Source: Oscillospiraceae bacterium | Lineage (GTDB): Bacteria > Bacillota > Clostridia > Oscillospirales > Ruminococcaceae | Length of the DNA: 64,000 bases | Direction of reading: 5' to 3' | NCBI GenBank assembly: GCA_009778065.1 | Contig: WRKM01000003.1 | Location: forward strand, 1 to 64,000 | Shown here: one piece after another, positions 29,069 to 37,997 of the stretch | How positions within the stretch are numbered: position 1 is the first letter of the stretch | How the letters are laid out: every line of letters begins with the position of its first letter | Made by a program: the position numbers and the translations under genes | Notes under the pieces: generated by a model | What the model was told of the DNA's origin: nothing | Databases searched by the model: none | Seen by the model: only the letters and a program-made list of their open reading frames with translations

Positions 29069-29986
29069 TTAATGCGGTCTGACCGTTCCGCTGATTTCGG
29101 CTATTCTTTTCATTCCGTTTATGTCCATATAATGTTCTAAACCGCCTATTATTTTTAGCGGCGCCAACGGGTCGGAGATTATAGCTGTACCGATTTGAAC
29201 CGCTTTTGCTCCCGCGAGCATCATTTCCACGGCATCCTCAGCGGAATTTATACCGCCCATACCCACTACATCTATATTGACCGCATTCGCAACCTGCCAG
29301 ACCATCCTTACAGCTATGGGAAATACCGCGGGTCCCGAGAGTCCACCTACGTTTCTATGCAGAATCGGACGTCTTGTTTTAATATCTATTCTCATACCGA
29401 GAAGCGTATTAATTAATGAAACAGCATCAGCGCCCTCGTTCTCAACGGCTTTGGCGATTTCGGTTATGTCTGTGACATTCGGGGTCAGCTTTACCATGAG
29501 CGGCTTTTTCGTAACCGCACGAACAGTTTTAGTCACCAATGACGCTCCTTCGGTTGAAATCCCCCATGCCGCGCCGCCTTTTTTCACGTTGGGACACGAT
29601 ATGTTCAATTCAAGCATATCTACGTCTGTTTCGTCCAATCTGCACGCAATCTCGGCGTAATCCTGCGGTGTGTCGCCGGCTATATTGGCTATTATTACGT
29701 TAGCTTCTTTTTTTAAACGCGGTAGATGAGTTTTTATGAAAACGTCTATACCGGGGTTTTGAAGCCCTACAGAATTAAGCATACCCGCAGGAGTTTCAGC
29801 CACACGGGGGGGAGGGTTTCCTACTCTTTTATTGATTGTCAGCCCCTTGCACGAAATACCGCCCATCAGTGAGGGCGGATATAAATCGGTGTAATACTCA
29901 CCGAATCCGTAAACACCCGAAGCCGCTATTACCGGATTGGGAAATTTCACTCCTGCAACATTAACGGTTAAATCCCACTTCTTCAA
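29069..29986 (-). CDS. pyrD: dihydroorotate dehydrogenase B, catalytic subunit
   Basis: A 305-residue class 1B flavoprotein that oxidises dihydroorotate and passes electrons to PyrK. The active-site cysteine lies in ELNISCPNVKKGG; the FMN phosphate site GMGGINSAEDAVEMMLAGA is intact. It overlaps pyrK by 4 bp, so the two subunits are coupled. It is the last gene of the pyr operon. Confidence 0.95.
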   Translation of the reverse strand: MKKWDLTVNVAGVKFPNPVIAASGVYGFGEYYTDLYPPSLMGGISCKGLTINKRVGNPPPRVAETPAGMLNSVGLQNPGIDVFIKTHLPRLKKEANVIIANIAGDTPQDYAEIACRLDETDVDMLELNISCPNVKKGGAAWGISTEGASLVTKTVRAVTKKPLMVKLTPNVTDITEIAKAVENEGADAVSLINTLLGMRIDIKTRRPILHRNVGGLSGPAVFPIAVRMVWQVANAVNIDVVGMGGINSAEDAVEMMLAGAKAVQIGTAIISDPLAPLKIIGGLEHYMDINGMKRIAEISGTVRPH

Positions 29987-30783
29987 AGTACAACCTCCTC
30001 GCCCTTGAACACCGGACCGTCTTTACAGACCATCAGCATATTATTACAGCTACCCGAAGCGTCTGTTCCGTTTTGCCGCGCAATTTCACAGGCACACACG
30101 GCACACGCCCCCACCCCGCATCCCATACGTTGTTCAAGCGATACTTCACAGTTTATTCTCGCTTTTTTACATATTTCTATAATCGCCGCGAGCATCGGTT
30201 CAGGACCGCAGGCGTAAACCATGTCAACATCATTTTGGGCAAGCTCTGACTCAAAGGGAAGGATAACAGAACCCTTAAACCCGACGCTTCCATCGTCTGT
30301 ACAGGTAATCACACGGGCGTCATTTTGCTTAAAGTCATTAGCGAGTATAACCTTGTCATAGCTTCTGAAACCGAGAATTGCCGTTGATTTCTCTCTGAAA
30401 ACCTTTGCCACGCCGAGCAGGGGCGGTATCCCAATACCGCCGCCGACAGTTACTATTCTTCTGCTCGGCGTAATATCCTCCGGAATAGTAAAACCGTTAC
30501 CGAGCGGTGCAATCATGTCTATACTGTCCCCGACATTGGCGTCGGTTAATTTTGCCGTACCATGTCCGCGAATCTCAAAGACGATTCTGACCCAACCGTT
30601 TTTACGGTCTATATCGCATATTGAAATCGGACGGCGTAGGGTAAAGCCCTCGACTTTAATATGCACGAACTGTCCGGGGCGGGCTTCTGCGGCTACCTCG
30701 GGACATAAAATCATATACGAATATACCCCCGCCGAAATGGCGGTTTTTTCAATAATGTGATAAGAGCCGCATCTGTAAGGCAT
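29983..30783 (-). CDS. pyrK: dihydroorotate dehydrogenase B, electron transfer subunit
   Basis: A 266-residue FAD/2Fe-2S protein linking PyrD to NAD. An FAD domain has LRRPISICDID, an NAD-binding domain has GGGIGIPPLLGVAK, and the iron-sulfur cluster motif is CGVGACAVC followed by a further Cys (near 219-241). It overlaps pyrD by 4 bp. Confidence 0.95.
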   Translation of the reverse strand: MPYRCGSYHIIEKTAISAGVYSYMILCPEVAAEARPGQFVHIKVEGFTLRRPISICDIDRKNGWVRIVFEIRGHGTAKLTDANVGDSIDMIAPLGNGFTIPEDITPSRRIVTVGGGIGIPPLLGVAKVFREKSTAILGFRSYDKVILANDFKQNDARVITCTDDGSVGFKGSVILPFESELAQNDVDMVYACGPEPMLAAIIEICKKARINCEVSLEQRMGCGVGACAVCACEIARQNGTDASGSCNNMLMVCKDGPVFKGEEVVL

Positions 30784-30882: not shown

Positions 30883-30897
30883 GCGGCGGCTCGCCGC
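30883..30897 (-). other. short GC hairpin at the carB stop codon
   Basis: GCGGCG and CGCCGC flank a 3-nt loop beginning at the carB stop. No T-tract follows. The 113-nt carB-pyrK gap is otherwise AT-rich with no clear promoter. The hairpin could mark an mRNA 3' end formed by processing. Confidence 0.4.
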
Positions 30898-33800
30898 TAA
30901 ATCTTTGTTATATCAACAAGCTCCACGTCATCTACGCTCATTCCCATTTCGAGGCAGTGAGCGAGTGCGTTCGCCGTGTCTATAGAAGTCAGACAGGCAA
31001 TCCCGCGTTCCACCGATTTACGGCGAATCTTTACACTGTCAAGTGCGGGGTTCCGCCCTGCCTCTGATGTGGAAATAACATAATCAATTTTTCCGCTCTC
31101 TATCAGTGAGATGACATTCGGCTCTTTCCCGTCATTTATACGGTAGACAAAATTTGCGGGTATCATGTTACGGTTTAAGAGTGTGGCTGTGCCGCTCGTG
31201 GCATATATATCAAAGCCGAGCCGTTCAAAACGTCCCGCAAGCTCTATAACCTCAGGCTTATCCGAATCACGCACCGAAAACAGAACGCCTGTATTCCCGT
31301 TAGGTTTTTTCATTTTAAATCCTGCGGCAACAAGCCCTTTATAGAGCGCTTCTTTAAAGGTTTTCGCGATTCCGAGGGTTTCGCCTGTTGACTTCATTTC
31401 CGGTCCTAACTGCGTGTCTACATCGTGTAGTTTTTCAAAGCTGAATACAGGTACTTTCACGGCAATATACTCACCCTCCGGGAATAAACCTGTAGGAAGC
31501 CCCTGCTCTTTCAAGCTCTCGCCAAGCATGGTTCTTGTCGCAACGTCAACCATCTGCACGCCTGTAACCTTGCTGATATACGGTACGGTTCGGGACGAAC
31601 GCGGATTTACCTCTATAACATAGACCTGATGATTATGAACCACGTACTGGATATTGACCAACCCGATTACTTTCAACTCCTTCGCAAGAGTTTCGGTGTA
31701 TGCGATAATGACCTTTTTAACTCGCTCGGTTAAGGTTTGAGCAGGGTAAACCGAAATACTGTCGCCTGAGTGTACGCCGGCGCGTTCTATATGCTCCATT
31801 ATGCCCGGGATTAAAATATCCGTACCGTCGCAAATAGCGTCAACTTCAACCTCTGTTCCCGTCAAGTATTTATCAATTAATACAGGGTTATCAATCTTTG
31901 CGGTTGTTATGATGTTCATGTACTCAATAACATCGCTGTCTGCATGAGCTATTATCATGTTTTGTCCGCCCAAAACATAAGAAGGGCGAAGCAAAACGGG
32001 ATAACCGAGCTTTTCTGCGGCTTTCACTGCTTCCTCGGTTGTAAATACCGTTGTTCCCTCAGGACGCGGAATATTACATTTTTCAAGAAGCGCGTCAAAC
32101 CGCTCCCTGTCCTCTGCCGCATCTATGCTGTCGGGCGGTGTGCCTAAGATATTCGCCCCTATTTGGGTTAAATGCTTTGTAAGTTTTATAGCGGTCTGTC
32201 CGCCGAACTGTACCACAACACCCCACGGTTTTTCGGTGTTTATCAGATTATCTGCATCTTCGGGAGTCAGCGGGTCAAAATAAAGCCTGTCACCGGTATC
32301 AAAGTCGGTCGATACCGTTTCGGGGTTGTTGTTTACAATAATCGCTTCATAGCCCATTTCTTTAAGCGTCCAGACGCAATGCACAGAGCAGTAATCAAAT
32401 TCAATCCCCTGCCCTATTCTTATCGGTCCCGAACCGAAAACAATTACCTTCTTTTTACCTTTGTTATGCTCCTCAATAAATTCGAGAGCTTCATTTTCTT
32501 CATCGTATGTTCCGTAGAAATACGGAGTCATCGCCGCAAATTCAGCCGCACAGGTGTCAACAGGCTTGTAAACTGCGTATTTTTTCTCGATTTCTTTGTC
32601 GGCGAGTTTCTGCCCTGAAATACGTTCAATCGTGCTGTCTAAAAATCCACATTTCTTAGCACGGATGTATATTTCTTCATTTAGGTCTTCTTTTATAGAT
32701 TGCTCGATTTTATGCAGATTACGGAATTTTTCAATAAACCATTTATCTATTGCGGTTATGCGGTTTATTTCGTCTGTCGAAACTCCGCGTTTTATTGCCT
32801 CGAACACACAGAATGCACGGTCACAGTCAACGTCATTGAGCTTTTCGAGAACCTCGGCGTCCGTCAGCTTTTCAAAAGCGGGCTTTGTCATGGTATCCAT
32901 ACCGAGTTCTATACCGCGTACCGCCTTCATGATGGCTTCCTCAAAACTCACGGCAATTGACATTACCTCACCGGTAGCCTTCATTTGCGTGCCGAGGGTC
33001 TTTTTCGCATATACGAACTTATCAAAAGCAAATCGCGGAAATTTTACAACCACATAATCAAGCGCGGGTTCAAAGCAGGCATAGGTCTTTCCCGTCACTT
33101 GATTTATAATCTCATCGAGAGAATAACCCACGGCGATTCTTGTTGCGACCTTCGCAATGGGGTAGCCCGTAGCCTTTGAAGCGAGTGCGGAGGAACGGCT
33201 TACTCTGGGATTTACCTCTATTACCGCATATTCAAAGCTTGTGGGATGAAGAGCTAATTGAACATTACAACCGCCCTCAATTTTTAGTGCGCTTACTATA
33301 TTAAGAGATGCGGTACGAAGCATTTGATATTCCTTATCGGCGAGCGTTACCGCAGGGGCTATTACTATACTGTCGCCTGTATGAACGCCGACAGGGTCTA
33401 CGTTTTCCATTGAACAGATGGTTATAACATTCCCTTTACCGTCGCGTATACATTCAAACTCGATTTCTTTCCAACCGGATATACCTTTTTCAATCAAAAC
33501 CTGCGTTATGGGTGACAGACGCAGTCCGTTTTCCGATATTTCTCTCAGCTGTTTTTCATCTGCCGCTATGCCGCCGCCCGTACCGCCTAATGTGAAGGCA
33601 GGGCGTACAACCACGGGATAACCTATTGTTTCGGCGTATTCTACAGCGCTCTCCACGTCTTCAACGACTTTTGAGGGTACGCACGGTTCGCCTATTTCTT
33701 TCATGGTGTCTTTAAAAATCTGCCTGTCTTCGGCTTTGTCGATTGTTTCTACATTCGCACCGAGTAGCTTTACACCCTGCTCTTCGAGAAAACCTTCTTT

Positions 33801-34109
33801 CGCCAACTGCATCGACAACGTGAGTCCTGTCTGTCCGCCGAGAGTAGAGAGCAGGCTGTCGGGTTTTTCTATTTTTATTATCCTTTTTATTACGTCAAGG
33901 TTTAGCGGTTCTATGTAAATTATATCCGCCATATTCTTATCTGTCATTATTGTCGCAGGGTTTGAGTTTACTAAAACGACCTCAAGACCTTCCTGCTTTA
34001 AAGCACGGCAGGCTTGCGTTCCTGCGTAGTCAAATTCGGCGGCTTGTCCGATTACAATAGGTCCTGAGCCTATTACGAGAACTTTTTTAATATCCTTTCT
34101 TAGTGCCAT
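30897..34109 (-). CDS. carB: carbamoyl-phosphate synthase large subunit
   Basis: The 1070 residues have two homologous ATP-grasp halves. The first phosphorylates bicarbonate (GSGPIVIGQAAEFDYAG, RPAFTLGGTGGG, EVNPRVSRSSALASKATG) and the second carbamate (GSGPIRIGQGIEFDYC, RPSYVLGGQNMI, EVNPRSSRTVPYISKVTG). A C-terminal MGS-like allosteric domain follows. All motifs I can judge are intact, so it should be active. Its partner CarA, 41 nt upstream, lacks the glutaminase triad, so ammonia is the expected nitrogen source. Confidence 0.96.
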   Translation of the reverse strand: MALRKDIKKVLVIGSGPIVIGQAAEFDYAGTQACRALKQEGLEVVLVNSNPATIMTDKNMADIIYIEPLNLDVIKRIIKIEKPDSLLSTLGGQTGLTLSMQLAKEGFLEEQGVKLLGANVETIDKAEDRQIFKDTMKEIGEPCVPSKVVEDVESAVEYAETIGYPVVVRPAFTLGGTGGGIAADEKQLREISENGLRLSPITQVLIEKGISGWKEIEFECIRDGKGNVITICSMENVDPVGVHTGDSIVIAPAVTLADKEYQMLRTASLNIVSALKIEGGCNVQLALHPTSFEYAVIEVNPRVSRSSALASKATGYPIAKVATRIAVGYSLDEIINQVTGKTYACFEPALDYVVVKFPRFAFDKFVYAKKTLGTQMKATGEVMSIAVSFEEAIMKAVRGIELGMDTMTKPAFEKLTDAEVLEKLNDVDCDRAFCVFEAIKRGVSTDEINRITAIDKWFIEKFRNLHKIEQSIKEDLNEEIYIRAKKCGFLDSTIERISGQKLADKEIEKKYAVYKPVDTCAAEFAAMTPYFYGTYDEENEALEFIEEHNKGKKKVIVFGSGPIRIGQGIEFDYCSVHCVWTLKEMGYEAIIVNNNPETVSTDFDTGDRLYFDPLTPEDADNLINTEKPWGVVVQFGGQTAIKLTKHLTQIGANILGTPPDSIDAAEDRERFDALLEKCNIPRPEGTTVFTTEEAVKAAEKLGYPVLLRPSYVLGGQNMIIAHADSDVIEYMNIITTAKIDNPVLIDKYLTGTEVEVDAICDGTDILIPGIMEHIERAGVHSGDSISVYPAQTLTERVKKVIIAYTETLAKELKVIGLVNIQYVVHNHQVYVIEVNPRSSRTVPYISKVTGVQMVDVATRTMLGESLKEQGLPTGLFPEGEYIAVKVPVFSFEKLHDVDTQLGPEMKSTGETLGIAKTFKEALYKGLVAAGFKMKKPNGNTGVLFSVRDSDKPEVIELAGRFERLGFDIYATSGTATLLNRNMIPANFVYRINDGKEPNVISLIESGKIDYVISTSEAGRNPALDSVKIRRKSVERGIACLTSIDTANALAHCLEMGMSVDDVELVDITKI

Positions 34110-34150: not shown

Positions 34151-35209
34151 TTATTTTATAAGCTCAATAAATTTCTCAATAAAACATATAGTTGCGTTAA
34201 CTCCGCCGCTGTCGGAAGGTATAAACTGCGCCGATAAAGAGGGATTCTCTTTATATTCTATTGCTTCACAGGTTCTGTCGTTGGCGTTTACGTGGGTGAT
34301 TTTACCTGTCTCATCGGGTATACTTCGGACGATGAAACCGTGATTCTGCGAAGTTATGAAAGTCCTGCCCGTTTCGAGTTCAATTACAGGCTGATTCGCA
34401 CCCCTGTGTCCGTATTTTAATTTAGCCGTTGTACCTCCGTTCGCGAGAGCCAACAACTGATGCCCAAGCCCCAGACCGAGAAGCGGGATTCTTTTGTCTT
34501 TCAGCGTTTTTATTGTTTCGATTTCTTCATTTAATTCGGACGGGTTTCCCGCACCATTGGATAGCACCACGCCATCGTAACCGCCGTCTATAATACTTTC
34601 GGCAGACTCGGTAAAGGGGATTAAATCCACATCACATCCGAGCATGTTCAGCAATCTTATGATTTCGCGCTTGTGTCCGTAGTCGATTAGAGCGACTTTG
34701 TATTTTGGTTCTGCCGCCTTAAACTCTGCCGGTTCTGCTACGCTGATTAAATCTGTTCCGGGAGAAAACCCCGCTATTTCTTTTAAGTCAGGATTTACAG
34801 GCTCCGTGGTTGTGATTTTTCCGTTCATTGTGCCTTTGTCGCGGAGTATCCGTGTCAAACGCCTTGTATCTATTCCGCACAGTCCTATGATTTTACGTTC
34901 TTTTAAAAACTCGTCAATTGTCGTCTCGGCACGGAAATTCGATGGCTTACTGCAATGCTCACGGACGATATATCCGACCGCGCCGCCATAATCCGAGGTG
35001 TTGTCCTCATTATTCACGCCCGAATTACCCGAAAGCGTAAAGGTTTGTACTATAATCTGATTGTTGTAATTCGGGTCGGTCAGGGTTTCCTGAAAGCCCG
35101 TCATAGACGTTGTGAAAACTATTTCACCTATCACTTCTCCCTCTGCACCGAAAGACTGCCCCTCAAAAACCGTCCCATCGGCTAATACTAACCATGCCTT
35201 TTTGTTCAT
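34151..35209 (-). CDS. carA: carbamoyl-phosphate synthase small subunit with inactivated glutaminase
   Basis: The 352 residues carry the CarA N-terminal domain (ADGTVFEGQSFG, GIDTRRLTRILRDKGTM) and a class I amidotransferase domain. The nucleophile motif normally reads GICLGHQ; here it is GLGLGHQ, with Gly247 (codon GGG at 34469-34471) for Cys. The usual QYHPEASPGP reads QFIPSDSGG, giving Ile330 for His and Ser332 for Glu. SNGPGDP is SNGAGNP. All three triad residues are thus lost while the frame and fold motifs (ITSQNHGF, GHRGANQPV) persist. I infer a structural partner that cannot hydrolyse glutamine, so CPSase would use free ammonia. RBS AGGAGGAA supports ATG 35209. Confidence 0.93.
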   Translation of the reverse strand: MNKKAWLVLADGTVFEGQSFGAEGEVIGEIVFTTSMTGFQETLTDPNYNNQIIVQTFTLSGNSGVNNEDNTSDYGGAVGYIVREHCSKPSNFRAETTIDEFLKERKIIGLCGIDTRRLTRILRDKGTMNGKITTTEPVNPDLKEIAGFSPGTDLISVAEPAEFKAAEPKYKVALIDYGHKREIIRLLNMLGCDVDLIPFTESAESIIDGGYDGVVLSNGAGNPSELNEEIETIKTLKDKRIPLLGLGLGHQLLALANGGTTAKLKYGHRGANQPVIELETGRTFITSQNHGFIVRSIPDETGKITHVNANDRTCEAIEYKENPSLSAQFIPSDSGGVNATICFIEKFIELIK

Positions 35210-35243: not shown

Positions 35244-36182
35244 TTATTTTATTCTGATTTCTCCGATTTCTTTAATCAATTCATTACGCATACGGATGGC
35301 TTCTCTATGAGCTGCCCCTGCGTAGTCTTTTTCACTGCACTTTTCTTTCTTATACGCACACATAACGGCACGCGAACTGTTCACGATACCGCCGAGACCA
35401 TTTTTATTAAACGCCGCTTTTAAATCCCCTGCCGTTCCGCCTTGCGCGCCGTAACCGGGGATTAAAAAAAACGTGTTAGGCAGCATTTCACGCAGGGATT
35501 TAATCTGAGCGGGATATGTCGCGCCGACTACCGCGCCGACGCCTGACCAGCCGTATTTTTTTTCGCTTTGCGCGCCCCATTTTTCACACATACTGCCCAT
35601 AAGTTCGTATACAGCGCAGATTTCATCGCTTATTATCTGGTCTTGTAACTCGCCTGAAGAGGGGTTTGAGGTTTTTACAAGTACGAATATACCCTTGTCG
35701 TATTTTTTACAAACGTCAACAAAAGGCGTGATTCCATCAGTGCCTAAGTAGCCGTTTACCGTCATTGCGTCCGCAGGAAAAGGGGTGTATTCGTTCGCGC
35801 CTACCTGCACCTTTCCGAGGTATGCGGTCGCGTAGCCCTCCGCACTACTACCTATGTCGTTACGCTTACAGTCCGCCACTACATACAAGCCGCGTTCTTT
35901 CGCGTATTTTACGGTTTTGTAAAAGGCTTTTATTCCCTCTGTGCCGAGCATTTCATAAAAAGCGATTTGCGGCTTTACAGCGGGGACTATGTCGTAAACA
36001 GCGTCAATCAATCCCTTATTAAACTTCCAAACAGCGTTTGCCGCGCCTTTAAGCGTTTCGCCGTGTTTGGCAAACGCTTTGGCTTTTATGAATTCCGGAA
36101 TATATTCAAGCTTCGGGTCTAAGCCTATCACGGATGGATTTTGGGTTTGTACGATTTTTTCAATAAGTCTGTCAAAGGACAT
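35244..36182 (-). CDS. pyrF: orotidine 5'-phosphate decarboxylase, long form
   Basis: A 312-residue PyrF of the longer type 2 group. It decarboxylates OMP to UMP. The catalytic Lys/Asp motif is DCKRNDIGSSAEGYA; GLDPKLEYIP opens the barrel and LIPGYGAQGG binds phosphate. It starts 34 nt after the PilZ gene and ends 34 nt before carA in the pyr operon. Confidence 0.94.
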   Translation of the reverse strand: MSFDRLIEKIVQTQNPSVIGLDPKLEYIPEFIKAKAFAKHGETLKGAANAVWKFNKGLIDAVYDIVPAVKPQIAFYEMLGTEGIKAFYKTVKYAKERGLYVVADCKRNDIGSSAEGYATAYLGKVQVGANEYTPFPADAMTVNGYLGTDGITPFVDVCKKYDKGIFVLVKTSNPSSGELQDQIISDEICAVYELMGSMCEKWGAQSEKKYGWSGVGAVVGATYPAQIKSLREMLPNTFFLIPGYGAQGGTAGDLKAAFNKNGLGGIVNSSRAVMCAYKKEKCSEKDYAGAAHREAIRMRNELIKEIGEIRIK

Positions 36183-36216: not shown

Positions 36217-36558
36217 TTAAGACATCAAAAACTTGATAATCTGCGATAAGCTCGACATATCCTTTTCGATAAATTCAACACCGTATTCAAATCGCTCATC
36301 TTCGCCGGGTACAATGCGTACAATTCTACCCTTAGCGATAGTTGTATACGCTATGTTTTCATTTTTGTAGTAGGCAGAAACCTCAAGTTTGAAATTTAAC
36401 TCGTTTCCGATTTCAAAATTTATAGTTCTCATAAAGAAATTAAGACCACCGGCTGATATGTTTTCAACCGCAATTTCCTTCCACTCCTCGCCATCGGTTC
36501 TCATTGCCGCATCGTAACAATAAGAGCATCTGATAAACCTCCGCTTGTTAAACATCAT
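36217..36558 (-). CDS. PilZ domain protein, predicted c-di-GMP binder
   Basis: A 113-residue stand-alone PilZ domain. The RxxxR motif (Arg6-Arg10 in KRRFIR) and the NxSxxG motif (Asn33-Gly38, NISAGG) are both complete, so it should bind cyclic di-GMP. It lies between pyrC and pyrF with gaps of 68 and 34 nt and shares their strand. No convincing separate promoter is seen, though the 68-nt gap leaves room for one. Its partner is unknown. Confidence 0.85.
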   Translation of the reverse strand: MMFNKRRFIRCSYCYDAAMRTDGEEWKEIAVENISAGGLNFFMRTINFEIGNELNFKLEVSAYYKNENIAYTTIAKGRIVRIVPGEDERFEYGVEFIEKDMSSLSQIIKFLMS

Positions 36559-36626: not shown

Positions 36627-37928
36627 TCAAGGTGCAAAAGAATACACCACGTTGCCATTTACTATTGTATGTTTGACCCTGCCTTTAAGCTTCATGCCTT
36701 TAAAACAAGAATTTCTTGATTTAGATTTAAACTGAGCAGTATCTACCGTCCATTCCTCATAGGGGTCAAACAAAGTTATATCTGCTGTATGCCCTATTGC
36801 GATACTGCCCCCGTTTTCTCCTTTTATACCAAAAATTCCCAATATTTTACGAGGATTTACGCACATTAGTCTGACTATATCGAACATACTCAGCTTTCCC
36901 GTATGAACAAGAAACGTCAGAGTTACAGCAAGCGAGGTCTCTAAGCCTATTACGCCGTTTGGCGCGGTGTGAAAATAATACTTTTCATCGGGGGTGTGCG
37001 GTGCGTGGTCTGTGGCGATGCAGTCAATCGTACCGTCACGGAGACCTTCAATAATTGCGTCAATATCTGCCCTCAGTCTTAGCGGAGGGTTCATTCTATA
37101 ATCTGCATCTTTTTCGTAGAGCTTGTCCTCGGTAAGTGTATAGTGATGCGGTGCGGCTTCGCAGGTAACTCCCACTCCCTGCGCTTTCGCGGAACGGATT
37201 TCAGCGACCGCCTCTTTAGTGGAAACGTGAGCGATATGCACTTTTTCACGTAAATCGCGAGCCAAGCTTATCTCGCGGGAGGTAATTATGTTCTCGCTTG
37301 AACGGTGAAGCCCCCAGAGTCCAAGCTTTATACTCACTATTCCTGCGTTTATAAGTCCGCCGCCTGCTATATCCATATCCTCGCAGTGAGAAATCATTAA
37401 AACCTTTTCGTCCCCTGCTTTAATCATCGCTTCACCCATGACCCGTGCGCTTTTAACAGGTCTGCCATCGTCTGTCATTGCTATACAAAAGTTTCCGTTC
37501 GCTGCTTTTTTTAACCTGCCTATGTCGCATATCTCTTTACCCTCTTGTCCCTTTGTTATGGCACAGGACGAGTATATTTTTACTTTACAGGTTTTTGCTT
37601 TTTCGGCTAAGTAATTTAAGGTTTCCTCGTTATCAATAACGGGTACTGTATTAGGCATACACAAAAACCCCGTTACACCGCCCGCCGCCGCCGCTTCGGA
37701 GCAGGTCAGCAGGTCTTCTTTATGCAGACCGCCGGGGTCGCGTGCGTGGACGTGCATATCGAACAATCCCGGAATCGCTGTCAGCCCTTTACAGTCGATA
37801 ATTCTTTCTGCGTTTTCGGTAATATTTTCAGATATGGAAATAATTTCACCTGCATTAATTAAAATATCCTTTTCCCCGTCAAGCCCCGATATATAATCCA
37901 CAACACGGGCGTTTTTCAACAGCAGCAT
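36627..37928 (-). CDS. pyrC: dihydroorotase
   Basis: A 433-residue amidohydrolase closing carbamoyl-aspartate to dihydroorotate. Metal ligands are visible in DMHVHARDPG, MTDDGRPV, MISHCED, AHVSTKEA and the catalytic DHAPHT. ATG 37928 follows GGAGG by 11 nt; the alternative TTG 37946 overlaps that site. It is the first gene of the operon pyrC-pilZ-pyrF-carA-carB-pyrK-pyrD. pyrB and pyrE are not in the window. Confidence 0.94.
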   Translation of the reverse strand: MLLLKNARVVDYISGLDGEKDILINAGEIISISENITENAERIIDCKGLTAIPGLFDMHVHARDPGGLHKEDLLTCSEAAAAGGVTGFLCMPNTVPVIDNEETLNYLAEKAKTCKVKIYSSCAITKGQEGKEICDIGRLKKAANGNFCIAMTDDGRPVKSARVMGEAMIKAGDEKVLMISHCEDMDIAGGGLINAGIVSIKLGLWGLHRSSENIITSREISLARDLREKVHIAHVSTKEAVAEIRSAKAQGVGVTCEAAPHHYTLTEDKLYEKDADYRMNPPLRLRADIDAIIEGLRDGTIDCIATDHAPHTPDEKYYFHTAPNGVIGLETSLAVTLTFLVHTGKLSMFDIVRLMCVNPRKILGIFGIKGENGGSIAIGHTADITLFDPYEEWTVDTAQFKSKSRNSCFKGMKLKGRVKHTIVNGNVVYSFAP

Positions 37929-37997
37929 AACTTCATCTTCCTCCAAGTAATTAATAAAAAGACTTCGGATTAGTTTACTTTTTGCTCAAATTAATTA

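Follow-up and report, generated by a model that had tools for sequence, protein, structure and literature searches.

Carbamoyl-phosphate synthetases (CPS) that are specific for ammonia are known in animals. In the two-subunit enzymes, glutamine hydrolysis is not expected from a small subunit (CarA) without its nucleophile, and the large subunit (CarB) can use ammonia; Escherichia coli small subunits mutated at Cys269 reportedly keep ammonia-dependent activity. A 2018 review names glutamine as the physiologically relevant donor for E. coli, and the E. coli enzyme is described as needing very high ammonia (PMC6245113), so that an efficient use of free ammonia would need some further feature. As far as the available sections of one paper go, Ser294 replaces the Cys in human CPS1, for which an alternative ammonia path has been proposed, and frog CPS1 keeps its triad yet is unable to use glutamine (PMC4655335). 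For bacteria, no description of a CarA without the catalytic Cys was found among the open-licence papers listed, a scope outside which CPS papers on Bacillus subtilis (1979) and Geobacillus stearothermophilus (1997) lie. Five papers about Blochmannia and Blattabacterium deal in part with ammonia or CPS (PMC3017870, PMC2768785, PMC3287516, PMC3819652, PMC9603385), and their accessible portions make no mention of a loss of this Cys.

The pyr Operon and Its CarA

The window, that is, the whole stretch of 64,000 nucleotides that was analysed, carries on its minus strand a pyr operon consisting of a pyrC-like gene, pyrF, carA1, carB and a pyrK-like gene, in which carA1 and carB adjoin as separate genes, with pyrF and pyrC beside them, and do not form a fused chain. 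The genes, and the replaced residues of CarA1, are the following:

36627..37946, minus strand: pyrC-like dihydroorotase/amidohydrolase (ORF, Pfam)
35244..36182, minus strand: pyrF, orotidine-5'-phosphate decarboxylase, upstream neighbour of carA1 (ORF, Pfam)
34151..35209, minus strand: carA1, CPS small subunit of the pyr operon, 352 aa, glutaminase triad lost (ORF, PF00988 and PF00117)
30897..34109, minus strand: carB, complete CPS large subunit, the sole CarB found in the genome (ORF, TIGR01369, Pfam)
29983..30783, minus strand: pyrK-like electron-transfer subunit with DHODB Fe-S domain (ORF, Pfam)
35069..35071, minus strand: Asn47 in the N-terminal domain, replacing E. coli Ser47 (HMMER alignment to E. 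coli CarA chains)
34541..34561, minus strand: SNGAGNP replacing SNGPGDP, residues 217-223 (sequence)
34469..34471, minus strand: Gly247, codon GGG, at the site of the nucleophile Cys269 (HMMER alignment to E. coli CarA chains)
34220..34222, minus strand: Ile330 at the site of His353, motif QFIPSDSGG (HMMER alignment to E. coli CarA chains)
34214..34216, minus strand: Ser332 at the site of Glu355, same motif (HMMER alignment to E. coli CarA chains)

A small ORF of 113 residues also lies between pyrF and the pyrC-like gene (36217-36558, minus strand).

With AAAGGAGG ahead of its ATG at 35209, the frame of carA1 is open over 352 codons and ends with the stop at 34151. The N-terminal PF00988 domain (CPSase_sm_chain, 167 bits) is followed by the class I glutamine amidotransferase (GATase) domain PF00117 (121 bits), and the protein reaches 364 bits with TIGR01368, the cut-off being 307; CarB scores 1419 bits with TIGR01369 against a cut-off of 1027. 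Both the otherwise intact reading frame and the intact carB next to it, on which the original prediction had built, are thereby borne out. The Cys-His-Glu triad, hallmark of the small subunit in CPS II, is absent from CarA1, with Gly247, Ile330 and Ser332 standing in its place, as had been claimed from the sequence; the replaced residues and their coordinates (GLGLGHQ at the nucleophile motif, GGG at 34469-34471, SNGAGNP) were all correct, and an additional lesion was found in Asn47, which stands for a Ser that we take to have a role in glutamine binding. An AlphaFold model based on an alignment of 35 CarAs with Gly at the nucleophile (Gly-CarAs) has a mean pLDDT of 93.3 and a pTM of 0.92; in the PDB it matches E. 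coli CarA best (TM 0.90 for the first entry, 1cs0_B), followed by human CPS1. The best reading is that carA1 encodes a pseudo-glutaminase, whose predicted fold is kept and whose triad is gone. A blocked tunnel was also considered for CarA1 and dropped, since, in E. coli numbering, residue 359 is still Gly, at a position less conserved among Cys-less CarAs generally, and the Ala found at residue 293 also occurs in 22 of 92 rows with Cys.

Loss of the Nucleophile within the Genus

Among 71 genomes of the genus searched with the CarA1 protein, 64 gave a match, and their CarAs were read up to the limits of the contigs. Of these 64, 17 have a pyr-type CarA that lacks the nucleophile and is full or nearly full length in 12, deleted in the nucleophile region in one and restricted to the N-terminal domain in four; contig ends truncate the CarAs of G016, G079 and G091, which are excluded from this loss count. 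Most of these copies fall into two clades:

Clade A, pyr CarA without nucleophile: G000 (the window's genome), G012, G017 (ends early, 338 aa), G023, G027, G062, G084
Clade B, pyr CarA without nucleophile: G028, G071, G073, G077

Cys and His are lost in all seven species-level genomes of clade A, and the residue losses of CarA1 therefore exceed chance; the contention that they do not stem from a single sequencing error holds on the same count. In clade B, three of the four genomes have Arg for Cys with His and Glu kept, the other one (G073) having Gly for Cys and Arg for His, the combination also seen in G022, which completes the twelve full or nearly full-length copies, and in G021 the nucleophile region is missing. 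G004 (L021), which the CarB tree places as sister of G022 and its Gly-CarA, has a CarA that keeps its Cys, with Asp for Glu and SQNYGY for SQNHGY. Only the N-terminal domain (131-143 aa; 131 in G065 and 139 in G083) is encoded in G065, G064, G083 and G006, where the stop lies 11, 7, 132 and 198 nt, respectively, before carB, and tblastn with the GATase domain found no GATase remnant near these genes (best E-values 0.49-1.7). They fit older E. coli work, in which the N-terminal domain is said to be the main CarB-binding part of CarA. G003 and G066, additional to the 17, have Gly in a CarA nearer to the type of a second copy, CarA2, described below. Thirteen congeners whose CarA is truncated or nucleophile-less and that have no CarA2 were checked, and in each of them this CarA is the only PF00988 match (drafts, 83-99% complete). 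The genus is a natural series, running from intact through point-mutated, internally deleted and N-domain-only forms to loss of the gene, which lets one ask what CarA does for CarB besides acting as a glutaminase.

Coupled Losses and Remaining Constraint

The residue comparison comprised 174 non-redundant CarA rows, of which 163 can be read at each of the three catalytic positions. None of the 68 rows with Cys has lost His, against 79 of the 95 Cys-less rows, and a changed Glu occurs in 2 of 68 against 38 of 95. All three residues are gone in 35 of the 95 Cys-less rows (both His and Glu are kept in 13), and Ser47 is kept in 65 of 68 rows with Cys against 44 of 106 rows that lost the Cys, with Asn in all seven members of clade A; as the rows with Cys come mostly from one order and those with Gly mostly from a pattern search, these figures are contrasts and not unbiased rates. 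Nine independent pairs on supported branches tie the loss of His to that of Cys (median p 0.016, range 0.004-0.125), and no significant tie to Cys loss was found for Glu355 in independent pairs (median p 0.45). Gln273, Asn311, Gly313 and Gly241/243, presumably glutamine-binding positions, are kept in most Cys-less CarAs, the Gln having been demanded by the search pattern itself.

On a CarB tree of the 174 rows, a minimum of 15 changes between Cys and no Cys is needed, at least four of them within the pyr type (50 rows, among which G361 comes from another genus of the family); the tree is unrooted, and the direction of change rests on the presence of Cys in intact CarAs elsewhere. SH-aLRT values of 98-99 in a quick tree support clade A, clade B, the truncated clade and the pair G022-G004, with G083 unplaced. 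The dN/dS of the GATase domain is 0.03-0.16 in Cys-less pairs (the 12 of 14 with a value) versus 0.018-0.076 in five intact pairs and 0.19 in the mixed pair G022-G004, and that of the N-terminal domain in Cys-less pairs is 0.016-0.11, all rough values, as several pairs have dS above 1, and the window's own pair (G000-G084) as well as S124-S156 are saturated and without dN/dS. Relative domain rates within clades did not separate Cys-less from intact clades. Comparison of the two GATase ranges means that constraint on this domain in the Cys-less CarAs of related lineages is relaxed but far from gone, and, given the faster evolution in these copies, part of the domain may be on its way out.

Gly-CarAs beyond the Genus

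A contig search with the window's CarA1 protein alone found no relative, for which reason a degenerate DNA pattern for Gly-x-Gly-Leu-Gly-His-Gln was used instead; forms with Arg or Ser, deleted copies and lone N-terminal domains escape it, which makes its counts lower bounds and the choice of rows biased. Over a collection of 84,980 species, at least 118 stretches matched, and among the matches listed 80 of 118 were Gly-CarAs (73 of these with carB in the same piece). A slightly wider pattern, applied to even samples that include the window's genome, matched in 24 of 394 genomes of the order, 22 being CarA, where PF00988 is present in 296 of the 394, and in 16 of 398 genomes of the phylum, all CarA. 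The reversed pattern gave 0 among the matches listed. The 80 Gly-CarAs come from Sporosarcina, Lederbergia, Oceanobacillus, Kroppenstedtia, Streptococcus agalactiae, Alistipes, Treponema, Mailhella, Thiopseudomonas, a Syntrophomonadaceae MAG and many Clostridia MAGs, and a good share of the records carry ruminant gut sites in their titles.

Fifty of the 80 genomes were searched with PF00988. A single match, assumed to be the Gly copy, was obtained in 34, and among the other 16, whose further CarA copies were read, seven hold a copy with Cys (G451, G470, G475, G477, G482, G486 and G489) and nine do not; within the limits of drafts, no CarA with Cys was thus seen in 43 of 50. In all seven two-copy Bacillaceae (Lederbergia and relatives; L378-L384), both CarAs have Gly. 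Streptococcus agalactiae ATCC 13813 has two CarAs (L100/L386 and L239), of which the pyr-linked one keeps Cys and the second carries Gly at the Cys and Tyr at the His position, and a CarA of G489 (L389) has Ser for Cys, as in human CPS1. In five Sporosarcina isolates the Gly-CarA is the single PF00988 match. Sporosarcina pasteurii, a species outside this analysis, is described in the available part of one paper as being without glutamine synthetase and glutamate synthase activity, its reported needs including ammonia and, for some strains, glutamine, with DSM33 having grown without the latter (PMC7775470). The Sporosarcina Gly-CarAs offer a testable idea for ammonia-loving bacteria.

A further concentration was found in one family (f47), which groups with the Syntrophomonadaceae record on the tree. 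Some match to a Gly-type query is present in 50 of its 54 genomes, near full length and at 65% identity or more in 34, and the best 30 loci all have Gly, with Asp (29) or Ala (1) at the His position. At least 16 of these 34 genomes list a second CarA, 41-52% identical, a point against the ammonia-fed reading given below. Eleven f47 genomes, picked for showing no second CarA, yield a single PF00988 match each, two of them being single-contig genomes; nine of these 11 CarAs, all but those of G906 and G923, were read and have Gly.

A Second CarA and the Possible Sharing of CarB

That the genome might hold a second CarA with the triad had been raised along with the original prediction, and one is indeed present, with the motifs GICMGHQ and FHPEARGG:

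L001 1477-2541 and L003 8506-12514, window's genome: orphan carA2, triad intact, flanked by purF and guaA
L003 16183-17871, window's genome: ammonium transporter fused to a P-II domain, downstream of guaA (Pfam)

The carA2 cluster comprises glutamate-synthase parts, purC, purB, purA, purF, carA2 and guaA, named by eye from the sequence, and the transporter, named by Pfam, lies 3.7 kb beyond guaA. GuaA keeps its motifs (by eye), and glutamine is therefore not shunned in general by this genome. Despite the two CarAs, only one CarB was found. In G062, G064, G020 and G036, the last from another family, carA2, carB2 and guaA stand in a row with purF upstream, and carB2 is absent between carA2 and guaA in the window's genome and in G010. 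In the drafts G010 (98% complete) and G080 (85%), pyrF is immediately followed by the pyr carB with no carA1 between them (L317, L316); each has one CarB in all and CarA2 as the sole CarA, so that, judging from gene content, CarA2 and the pyr CarB seem to be the working pair there. The window's genome may represent an intermediate state, with a single CarB shared by CarA1 and CarA2. A further, divergent CarB with about 45% identity to that of the window occurs in G006, G014, G020 and G065 (L312, L313, L314 and L315), for which the CarA searches found no separate CarA.

Weighing the Explanations

The explanation that we favour, at a probability of roughly three in four, is an ammonia-fed CPS that keeps CarA as a structural subunit, with one CarB that may serve a dead and a live partner in the window's genome. 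CarA1 would bind CarB and hold it in an active, regulated shape, and CarB would make carbamoyl phosphate from free ammonia, bicarbonate and two ATP for pyrimidine synthesis. Where no second CarA was found in congeners, ammonia would be the only route and the CPS ammonia-specific, and in the four N-domain-only genomes nothing but the N-terminal domain is left of the small subunit. In the window's genome, the orphan CarA2 of the gltB/purF/guaA/amtB-PII cluster probably pairs with the same CarB, and the least certain step, for which we see roughly even odds, is that the CPS can be fed by ammonia via CarA1 or by glutamine via CarA2. It speaks against the favoured explanation that the intact CarA2 of this genome might supply CarB continuously. 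That CarA1 has stably lost the hydrolysis of glutamine, as originally predicted, is strongly supported at the level of residues, since the loss is clade-wide, affects open frames and recurs elsewhere. The prediction of an ammonia-driven CPS with a structural CarA survives as the best reading, a nucleophile-less CarA being the sole PF00988 match in all 13 checked congeners that have no CarA2; exclusive dependence of the window's cell on ammonia is less certain, since an intact CarA2 lacking a cognate CarB is encoded there too. The accompanying suggestion of an ammonia-rich habitat, such as gut or rumen, stays conjectural.

The intact triad of CarA2 and the failure to find a CarB of its own, together with the arrangement in G010 and G080, would equally suit a CarA1 that is idle here, CarA2 having taken over CarB, the CPS being glutamine-dependent and carA1 heading for deletion as in those two genomes. 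We consider this unlikely, if deserving of real weight, as carA1 is still an open, confidently modelled frame within its operon, and such a CarA1 persists in five genomes of clade A in which no CarA2 was found, so that the subunit does something there. Less likely still is a role of the dead CarA as a sensor or allosteric regulator, one that has kept its glutamine binding and adjusts CarB: most of the presumed binding positions are kept, with the reservation about the Gln noted above, and dN/dS remains low, but the frequent loss of Ser47, complete in clade A, and the forms without any GATase domain make this improbable.

Cys192 and Cys314, conserved in all seven clade-A CarAs, could be thought to let the glutaminase persist via another nucleophile, but His and Glu are gone too, neither Cys lies in the GxGLGHQ motif and the genus has CarA copies without the whole GATase domain, so that we give this idea hardly any credence. 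Even less credible is a sequencing or assembly error or a decaying pseudogene, which the draft state of the genome (43 contigs) might invite, considering that the same losses recur in seven species-level genomes and similar ones in other lineages, that two single-contig genomes have a Gly-CarA as their sole copy and that the dN/dS values obtained lie well below 1.

Returning to the ammonia-fed CPS with a structural CarA, the distribution of residues suggests that bacteria with Cys-less or N-domain-only CarAs use free ammonia, not glutamine, for carbamoyl phosphate, from which pyrimidines and arginine are built, and the residue data speak against glutamine as the donor in several bacterial lineages. 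A more far-reaching proposal, which we regard as tentative and rather less probable than its opposite, is that of a common, repeatedly evolved bacterial ammonia-specific CPS, whose stages begin with a lone Cys-to-Gly replacement and end with a small subunit reduced to its N-terminal domain, combined in some species with a CarB shared by dead and live CarAs, whereby subunit exchange would act as a nitrogen-status switch between an ammonia mode (dead partner) and a glutamine mode (live partner, encoded near AmtB-PII). Automatic annotation hides the loss of the triad: CarA1 passes the NCBI 'glutamine-hydrolyzing' equivalog model despite lacking it, and metabolic models will therefore assign a glutamine-fed reaction to an enzyme that lacks the catalytic residues.

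Comparison with Known Systems

With the glutamine-dependent E. coli CarAB, of the CPS II type, the window's enzyme shares its two subunits, the two-domain CarA fold (TM 0.90) and a complete CarB, but Cys269, His353, Glu355 and Ser47 are all replaced. E. coli Cys269 mutants, one of which is represented by the C269S structure 1c30, are likewise bacterial CarAs without the nucleophile, although made in the laboratory. The carbamate-kinase-like CPS of Pyrococcus offers, according to the accessible part of its description (PMC6022934), another case of prokaryotic carbamoyl-phosphate synthesis without a glutaminase subunit; it has another fold, whereas the window has an ATP-grasp CarB. The closest parallel is animal CPS I, and human CPS1 in particular, which also retains a glutaminase-like domain, that of CarA1 being presumably inactive given the absent triad. 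The parallel drawn at the outset therefore holds, as does the deeper erosion claimed for CarA1, where His, Glu and Ser47 are lost as well. CPS1 differs in being one fused chain that is switched on by N-acetylglutamate, in contrast to the separate subunits found here, and the bacterial loss goes further, extending to His, Glu, Ser47 and in some cases the whole domain, and has happened repeatedly.
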